From: Deltaproteobacteria bacterium
GTDB taxonomy: Bacteria; Desulfobacterota; Syntrophorhabdia; Syntrophorhabdales; Syntrophorhabdaceae
NCBI GenBank assembly: GCA_022711595.1
Contig: JAKLET010000002.1
Span: 124,001 to 188,000 of the forward strand
Direction of reading: 5' to 3'
Length of the DNA stretch: 64,000 nucleotides
Part shown: piece after piece, positions 49,151 through 50,270 of the stretch
Layout: each line of letters begins with the position of its first letter
How positions within the stretch are numbered: the first letter of the stretch is position 1
The notes under the pieces: generated by a model
What the model was told of the DNA's origin: nothing
Seen by the model: the letters and a program-made list of their open reading frames with translations, nothing else
The model's database searches: none
Made by a program: the position numbers and the translations under genes

Positions 49151-49213
49151 TTACGGCATTCCCCGGTTCCCTTCGGCCGTTGATTGTTATATTATGTGAC
49201 AAAGGAGGTTCTC

Positions 49214-49819
49214 ATGAGTCGCTTAAAAGATCTGAACACACCGGTATTCTGGGCTGAAGGCCATCCGGGAAGCCTCGACCGGGAGGGTTGGGAGATCAAT
49301 GTGACAGGGCTCTGCGAGGCACCGCGGACCTTTGCATGGAAAGACCTGCTTTCCATGCCGAAGACCGTCGCCGATGCCAGGCTCACGAGCGTGACTCGTT
49401 TCAGCGTGAGGGGTCGATGGGCAGGAGTGAGGGTGTCCGATATCTTGAAGGAGGTCCGGGCCACCCCGGCAGTCACACACGTAAGGTTCTGGTCTGTAAG
49501 GAGCGTTTATGATACCTCGATCCCGGTCGGGACTGCGATCAGGGAACGGACGCTCCTTGCGTATGAGTTTGACGGAGAATACCTCGAAGAAGATTACGGC
49601 GGGCCAGTTCGTGCCTTCGTGCCTTACCTGTGGGGGTACAAGTCCGCAAAGAGCGTTGTCCGCATTGAGCTCATGGACCATTACCTCTCTGGGTACTGGG
49701 AAAAAAGAGGTTATACCGATGAGGCATACATAGAGGCGGGCCTTGTCAGGGACATGAACGAAGGTGGCAGGGCAAGGCGCATTGCCGACGGAGAGGTGAT
49801 AGACTTCATAAGCGAGTGA
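49214..49819 (+). CDS. Sulfite-oxidase-fold molybdopterin protein lacking the Mo-ligand cysteine
   Basis: 201 residues from ATG 49214 (AAAGGAGG six bases upstream). The fold is clear: WEINVTGLCEAPRTFAWKDL, GRWAGVRVSDIL, DYGGPVRAFVPYLWGYKSAKSVVRIEL and GYWEKRGYTD match SUOX/YedY-like proteins. At the site where these have HCVTRWS the protein has TSVTRFS, so the cysteine that coordinates molybdenum is Ser 59. There is no Tat signal, so it would stay in the cytoplasm. Either Ser replaces Cys as ligand, or the protein binds cofactor without catalysis. No redox partner is adjacent. Confidence 0.85.
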   Translation: MSRLKDLNTPVFWAEGHPGSLDREGWEINVTGLCEAPRTFAWKDLLSMPKTVADARLTSVTRFSVRGRWAGVRVSDILKEVRATPAVTHVRFWSVRSVYDTSIPVGTAIRERTLLAYEFDGEYLEEDYGGPVRAFVPYLWGYKSAKSVVRIELMDHYLSGYWEKRGYTDEAYIEAGLVRDMNEGGRARRIADGEVIDFISE

Positions 49820-49946: not shown

Positions 49947-50270
49947 ATGAGCAACGCCAAAGCCGTAACGGATAGCGAATTCAAAGTGGAGGTCCTTGAT
50001 TCGAATATACCCGTTCTTGTCGATTTCTGGGCGGTGTGGTGCGGCCCGTGCCAGATGATGGGGCCCGTCATCGATGCCCTTGCCGGAGAATATGAAGGAA
50101 AAGTGAAGATCATGAAGATCAATGTCGACGAAAATCCCCAAACTCCCGCGCAGTACGGGGTACGCGGCATCCCGACCCTGATCGTCTTCAAGGGCGGCCA
50201 GGAGGTCCAGCGCATTGTCGGGGCCCAGCCCAAGAACAATGTGGAAGATGTCCTGAAAAAGGTCATATAA
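49947..50270 (+). CDS. trxA: Thioredoxin
   Basis: 107 residues, standard length. Active site [15 protein letters not shown], cis-proline [14 protein letters not shown]. It reduces protein disulfides in the cytoplasm. AAAAGGAGG lies six bases before ATG 49947. The thioesterase gene follows after five bases, so the two form an operon. The residue before CGPC (VW rather than EW/PW) is an ordinary variation. Confidence 0.95.

Follow-up and report, generated by a model that had tools for sequence, protein, structure and literature searches.

PruR is a protein of the sulfite-oxidase (SUOX) fold in which Trp replaces the molybdenum-ligating Cys; PMC13259868 describes it as preferring tetrahydromonapterin and acting on a c-di-GMP enzyme. 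According to the same source it has ~170 aa, is made with a secretion signal, has a truncated pocket and is encoded in an operon with DcpA or a sensor kinase, the partner carrying a WX7E motif in a periplasmic region of ~190 aa (PMC13259868). Replacement of the ligand Cys by Ser is known from chicken C185S (named in the titles of entries 3hbg and 3hbp) and human C207S sulfite oxidase, and PMC9370002 reports that human C207S retains its pterin dithiolene bands and that Ser-ligated molybdenum exists in the DMSO reductase family. These two proteins share the Cys-to-Ser change with the protein described here, but they are laboratory mutants of enzymes, whereas the Ser type is a natural and invariant clade. 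We found no account of such a clade in the full-text literature searched, a coverage that leaves out most subscription journals and in which PruR did surface.

The window (the whole stretch of DNA analysed, 64,000 nucleotides) encodes a protein of this kind, P0001, whose features are listed in Table 1. Its residues 18-162 match PF00174 (Oxidored_molyb) in Pfam with E 8.7e-32 and 110.5 bits (cut-off 24), as one would expect from the first-pass annotation, which had called the fold well kept. PF00174 is its only Pfam match, and the DMSO reductase-type PF00384 fold is absent. The MsrP, SoxC, SorA and SorT models match it as well, all far under their cut-offs, and among solved structures its sequence relatives are for the most part sulfite oxidases, nitrate reductase fragments and MsrP. 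Identity to its orthologues reaches 77%. By eye, its N-terminus has neither a signal peptide nor a Tat-like signal, in agreement with what had been noted before.

Table 1. Features of the window copy and its surroundings
Feature	Position in window	Strand	Basis or remark
Ser-type sulfite-oxidase-fold protein P0001	49214..49819	+	ATG to TGA, 201 aa plus stop; PF00174
Shine-Dalgarno-like AAAGGAGG	49201..49208	+	Read from sequence, upstream of the P0001 ATG
Motif RLTSVTRFS, residues 56-64	49379..49405	+	Alignment; holds Ser59 at the Mo-ligand Cys position
Ser59 codon AGC	49388-49390	+	Opposite the Mo-ligand Cys
YGGPVRAFVPYLWGYKSAK, residues 128-146, retained cofactor-pocket stretch with Arg133 and Lys146	49595..49651	+	Invariance in Ser-type rows
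Cys34 codon	49313-49315	+	Residue kept in the window's subclade
Thioredoxin gene	49947-50267		After the window copy; possible electron donor

In a MAFFT alignment of E. coli MsrP (L040) with the window protein, ARLTSVTRFSVRGRWAGV lies on YRMRCVEAWSMVVPWIGF without gaps, and Ser59 stands, with no gap nearby, opposite preprotein Cys146 in the MsrP motif YRMRCVEAWS. The His of the family motif HCVTRWS is also changed, to Thr58, Tyr128 occupies the position of MsrP Asn233, and the W.G that follows the motif is kept as in the PF00174 family. On this alignment the window protein is confirmed as a sulfite-oxidase fold with Ser59 at the position of the molybdenum-ligand Cys, which is what the first-pass annotation had proposed. 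It thus resembles MsrP (YedY) and the PF00174 family in fold, in motif order, in its Arg133/Lys146-type anchors and in the W.G; it differs in having Ser59 for Cys and in belonging to a type that occurs in genomes with neither MoaC nor MoeA detected.

The replacement is not confined to the window copy. Ser59 is present in 49/49 Ser-type rows (47 distinct, two duplicates), and in the same alignment Cys occupies the ligand position in 49/49 Cys-type rows (48 homologues and MsrP). So do another 11 homologues, read from a third phylum, and Cys was thus found in all 59 other profile-matched homologues read. One of these is in the window's own genome, the paralogue L013, which also matches PF00174 and keeps the classical Cys. 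The Ser type is further characterised by Arg56 (invariant along with Ser59), Leu57, Thr58, Tyr128, Gly130 and a G...D.N tail. In the maximum-likelihood tree a branch supported at 100/99 separates it from the other sequences, a distinct group as had been supposed, and it divides into an SVTR subclade, to which the window copy belongs, and an SVSG subclade. Over 54 distinct loci, a count that includes the broken L011 and the partial L038, the Ser59 codon is AGY in 42/42 SVTR and TCN in 12/12 SVSG genes. These two codon classes could reflect either a switch of codon class under selection for Ser or two Cys-to-Ser events.

The gene is conserved and Ser59 invariant in the clade, in keeping with the earlier claim that it is under selection. 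A sequencing error, a pseudogene or chance would have to recur across dozens of separate assemblies and in two codon classes, and we regard this explanation as negligible; Ser in 49/49 rows of one type and Cys in 49/49 of the other is compatible neither with chance nor with a base error. Loss of the gene does happen, since the relative L011 is interrupted. In this locus (from 5998), apparently the same copy as that of genome G167 (L030, L061), the Ser-type gene is broken just past RLTSVTRF and is either decaying or mis-assembled.

Cys34 was also considered as the ligand and rejected. It is kept in the SVTR subclade but found in 1/11 SVSG rows, and the Cys-type L013 has Cys at position 34 in addition to its ligand Cys; being rare in SVSG and present beside a true ligand, Cys34 is no substitute ligand. 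It is present in 50/50 readable Cloacimonadota copies.

With a profile built from 29 Ser-type proteins, the 395 genomes of the window's phylum yielded 22 intact Ser-type copies, each scoring at least 283 bits, and the next intact match, at 158 bits, was the Cys paralogue. A broken copy (G167) and a partial second copy (in G081) were also found; the latter, L038 (G081:C97), lies beside an intact one. The Ser type occurs in 51/117 Cloacimonadota genomes, with Ser59 in 51/51 copies. Identity to the window protein is 57.5-68.5% for the 20 distinct Cloacimonadota copies in the tree, which form one clade (96/93) inside the window's subclade; two identical rows were left out of this tree and of the pocket statistics below. 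In the third phylum, 22 of 299 genomes had any match, and of the 26 matches the 12 that were read included one Ser type (L169). The group had been described as small, a description that does not survive 22 intact copies in 395 genomes, 51 carriers in 117 and one in 299. A scan of the species collection with exact peptides of the window protein, which finds close relatives only, gave 12 loci, and the viral contigs scanned held no relative. Plasmid searches (885 and 860 records) returned only homologues of <60% identity. Two weak matches were inspected as PruR candidates and proved not to be PruR-like.

We then compared the cofactor pocket with that of MsrP, whose contact positions we take to be N88, F91, Y92, C146, T181, N233, R238 and G249-K251. 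Seven of these ten mapped onto the Ser type; N88, F91 and Y92 did not. Arg133 and Lys146 are identical to MsrP; at Ser94, Tyr128 and Ser144 MsrP has other residues, although the clade itself is invariant there; and Ala145 varies. Y128, R133, S144 and K146 are found in 49/49 Ser-type rows and in 50/50 readable Cloacimonadota copies (the G465 copy stops at the contig edge). Across the 47 non-redundant Ser rows, 6/7 mapped contacts are invariant against a background of 33/201 positions (hypergeometric P 8e-5), and in the 20 Cloacimonadota rows all 7/7 are, against 65/201 (P 3e-4). A pocket serving the molybdenum cofactor (Moco) would be expected to decay without Moco; the Cloacimonadota pocket is instead invariant, which argues that these copies are not relics.

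The gene content of the hosts differs between the phyla. Any molybdopterin requires MoaC, and many Moco enzymes have PF00384 as their catalytic domain. Searches of the window's genome found MoaC, MoaE (two matches) and PF00384 (five matches). Of 31 carriers searched (34 genomes minus G395, G402 and G405), 26 have MoaC, among them 21/21 high-quality genomes (one of which, G167, has the broken Ser-type copy); it was not found in G319, G398, G401 and two Cloacimonadota. With MoaC this frequent in the window's phylum, host gene content cannot settle the matter there. MoaE (PF02391) went undetected in 9/9 genomes of family f9 and 7/7 of family f17, of which 15/16 have MoaC, which raises the question of a divergent or different MPT synthase.

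In Cloacimonadota, by searches that took in the same 117 genomes as that for the Ser type, MoaC was found in three (G417, G423, G520) and MoeA in two (G417, G423), none a Ser-type carrier, so that each is found in 0/51 carriers. FolE2 is present in 47/51 of these carriers (in G492 as a contig-edge fragment only) and FolE in 0/51; given this frequency of FolE2, assembly gaps do not in general explain the missing MoaC and MoeA. The carriers therefore probably make pterins, and apparently make no Moco. PF00384 has strong full-length matches in 5/51 of them. G404 and G427 encode a formate dehydrogenase alpha subunit over the curated cut-off and G488 a fragment just under it, all three with the dinucleotide-binding domain PF01568; these are genuine Moco or W enzymes. 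Neither MoaC nor MoeA was detected in the three genomes (loci L212, L213, L214), where the Moco pathway either lies in missing sequence or escapes the two markers, so a search for MoaC and MoeA may overlook a host in which the cofactor is probably present. Of the PF00384 matches that are not formate dehydrogenases four were identified, the strong ones of G429 and G504 and weak ones of G406 and G415; each is a GltD/NuoG-like fusion protein that lacks PF01568 and does not have to contain Moco. The 46 carriers with no strong match divide into 20 with weak matches above the Pfam cut-off (24 to 34.3 bits), 13 with weaker ones and 13 with none; most weak matches cover ~70 positions, that of G415 most of the model. 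The case for Moco-free hosts rests on 48/51 Cloacimonadota carriers, and G406 is the strongest of them: its Ser-type gene lies on a contig of 2,246,820 bases, about the whole genome (2.2 Mb), with no MoaC, no MoeA and a single 67-position PF00384 match inside the GltD/NuoG-like fusion protein.

Export signals point in the same direction. Proteins that hold Moco usually receive it in the cytosol and are then exported in folded form via Tat. In 8/20 Cloacimonadota copies (L129, L131, L132, L133, L134, L138, L139, L145) we saw by eye Sec- or lipoprotein-like signals without the twin Arg, which, given this route of loading and export, speaks against Moco. Within one operon type L132, L134, L138 and L139 look exported and L136, L144 and L146-L148 have no signal; export has apparently switched within one Cloacimonadota orthologous group.

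Neighbouring genes, compared over 44 loci (L155, which had no anchor, was dropped), offer mixed hints overall. In the 20 Cloacimonadota loci, with families assigned by Pfam on representatives, an NAD(P)H-hydrate epimerase/dehydratase repair gene lies at -1 in 12, a two-TM sensor kinase with a loop of ~205 aa upstream at -2 in 12 and MazG at -3 in 11; at +1 are an EamA transporter in seven, an IF-2B-family gene in four and DHFR in two, the last perhaps through a single shared event. Two loci have a thiouracil desulfurase-DUF1722 gene at -1. The NAD(P)H-hydrate repair gene is beside 0/23 anchored non-Cloacimonadota loci (two pairs of which are from the same genomes). The neighbours of the window copy recur in close relatives only; a thioredoxin gene also follows the Ser-type copy in five of these, a neighbour that would suit a reductase.

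The window protein shares with PruR a SUOX-type fold without the molybdenum-ligating Cys, and the Ser-type profile matches 7kos, one of the PruR structures (PDB 7KOS, 7KOU, 7KOM), with E 2.7e-4. A structure predicted for the window protein from 11 sequences was weak (pLDDT 59.6), so its Foldseek matches, the best being 1xdq (E 4.7e-7) and including 7kom with a TM-score of 0.61 by target length, are supportive only. The differences are several, the two being compared by description only. PruR has Trp at the Cys position and all Ser-type rows have Ser; PruR is a periplasmic protein of ~170 aa with a secretion signal, whereas the window copy has 201 aa and no visible signal; and PruR adjoins DcpA, while by eye no DcpA-type or kinase gene adjoins the window copy. 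The WX7E motif matched the kinase loop in 1/12 of the Cloacimonadota loci having that kinase. By the defining features of PruR, as far as they can be read from sequence, the Ser type is not a PruR.

The Ser-type clade has lost the Cys ligand, and we suggest that it has lost the molybdenum cofactor as well. The pocket residues Ser94, Tyr128, Arg133, Ser144 and Lys146, at positions that hold pterin and phosphate in the enzymes, have stayed and most likely bind a molybdenum-free ligand. This would most likely be a reduced and/or phosphorylated pterin: a pterin by the precedent of PruR, a Cys-less pterin binder of the same fold, and perhaps a phosphorylated one because the Arg and Lys of the cofactor site are kept. 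The protein would sense or carry pterins. In the window's phylum it would work in the cytosol, and some Cloacimonadota copies would act outside the inner membrane, partly as apparent lipoproteins. The retained pocket, the carriers that gave neither MoaC nor MoeA, FolE2, the signals without twin Arg and the DHFR gene adjoining in 2/20 loci support this molybdenum-free reading; against it count the Moco available in window-phylum hosts, the three formate dehydrogenase carriers, the weak PF00384 matches above the Pfam cut-off in 20 further carriers, the thioredoxin neighbour, the cofactor retention of C207S and the features in which PruR differs from the window copy. On balance we give it an even chance. 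We infer the absence of Moco from the hosts, the pterin nature of the ligand, the role as sensor or carrier and not enzyme, and that window-phylum copies act like those of Cloacimonadota. That the whole Ser clade has left molybdenum behind, with a reduced pterin or pterin phosphate, free of metal, for its ligand or signal, and so forms a second metal-free branch beside PruR, is a more tentative proposal, which we consider rather doubtful.

The first-pass annotation had offered serine ligation, or else cofactor storage or sensing, as the role. In a serine-ligated Mo- (or W-) MPT oxidoreductase the Ser59 oxygen would sit on the metal as in DMSO reductase and the protein would perform oxo-transfer in the cytosol. 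The DMSO reductase precedent, the retention of the other anchors, the MoaC, MoaE and PF00384 genes of the window's genome, a thioredoxin that could supply electrons and the formate dehydrogenases of three Cloacimonadota carriers all speak for it, and since C207S sulfite oxidase retains the dithiolene cofactor (PMC9370002), such ligation could occur in Moco-making hosts. However, 51 Cloacimonadota genomes that gave neither MoaC nor MoeA have the same invariant residues, and 48 of these genomes show no PF00384 match of formate-dehydrogenase strength. Some copies also have, by eye, export signals that lack the twin Arg. Molybdenum ligation by serine is thus possible but disfavoured, and we think it unlikely. 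Storage or sensing fits better if the ligand is other than Moco. A carrier or store of Moco or MPT in Moco-making hosts, with the Cloacimonadota copies moved to another use, would agree with the MoaC of window-phylum carriers and with a missing Cys that would prevent turnover; but there is no relaxation in Cloacimonadota, where Y128, R133, S144 and K146 persist in every readable copy, and this makes it quite improbable. The ligand might also be independent of Moco and yet not a pterin, the Ser type acting, for instance, in the repair of nucleotides or metabolites, with Ser59 as a possible nucleophile. Damage-control neighbours in Cloacimonadota (NAD(P)H-hydrate repair, MazG and thiouracil desulfurase-DUF1722) and the joint invariance of Ser59 and Arg56 suggest it, but the hydrate repair gene does not adjoin the anchored loci of other phyla and the retained pocket is a pterin pocket; we see a repair role as a minor prospect beside the molybdenum-free pterin reading.

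Because their matches to PF00174 (Oxidored_molyb) are strong, Ser-type genes risk being named molybdopterin oxidoreductases. If the Ser type uses no Moco, calls based on PF00174 overstate molybdenum use in anaerobes, and the sulfite-oxidase fold gains a second metal-free branch. A testable question follows, namely what ligand a sulfite-oxidase fold holds where the organism has no Moco genes. The Eubacteriales protein L012 (2801-4396), a distant tandem homologue (31%), has SUOX-like repeats, was kept out of the Ser/Cys counts and trees, and gave no useful match in a phmmer search. Its first repeat has no Cys at the ligand position, so Cys loss in the sulfite-oxidase fold is not unique to the Ser clade.
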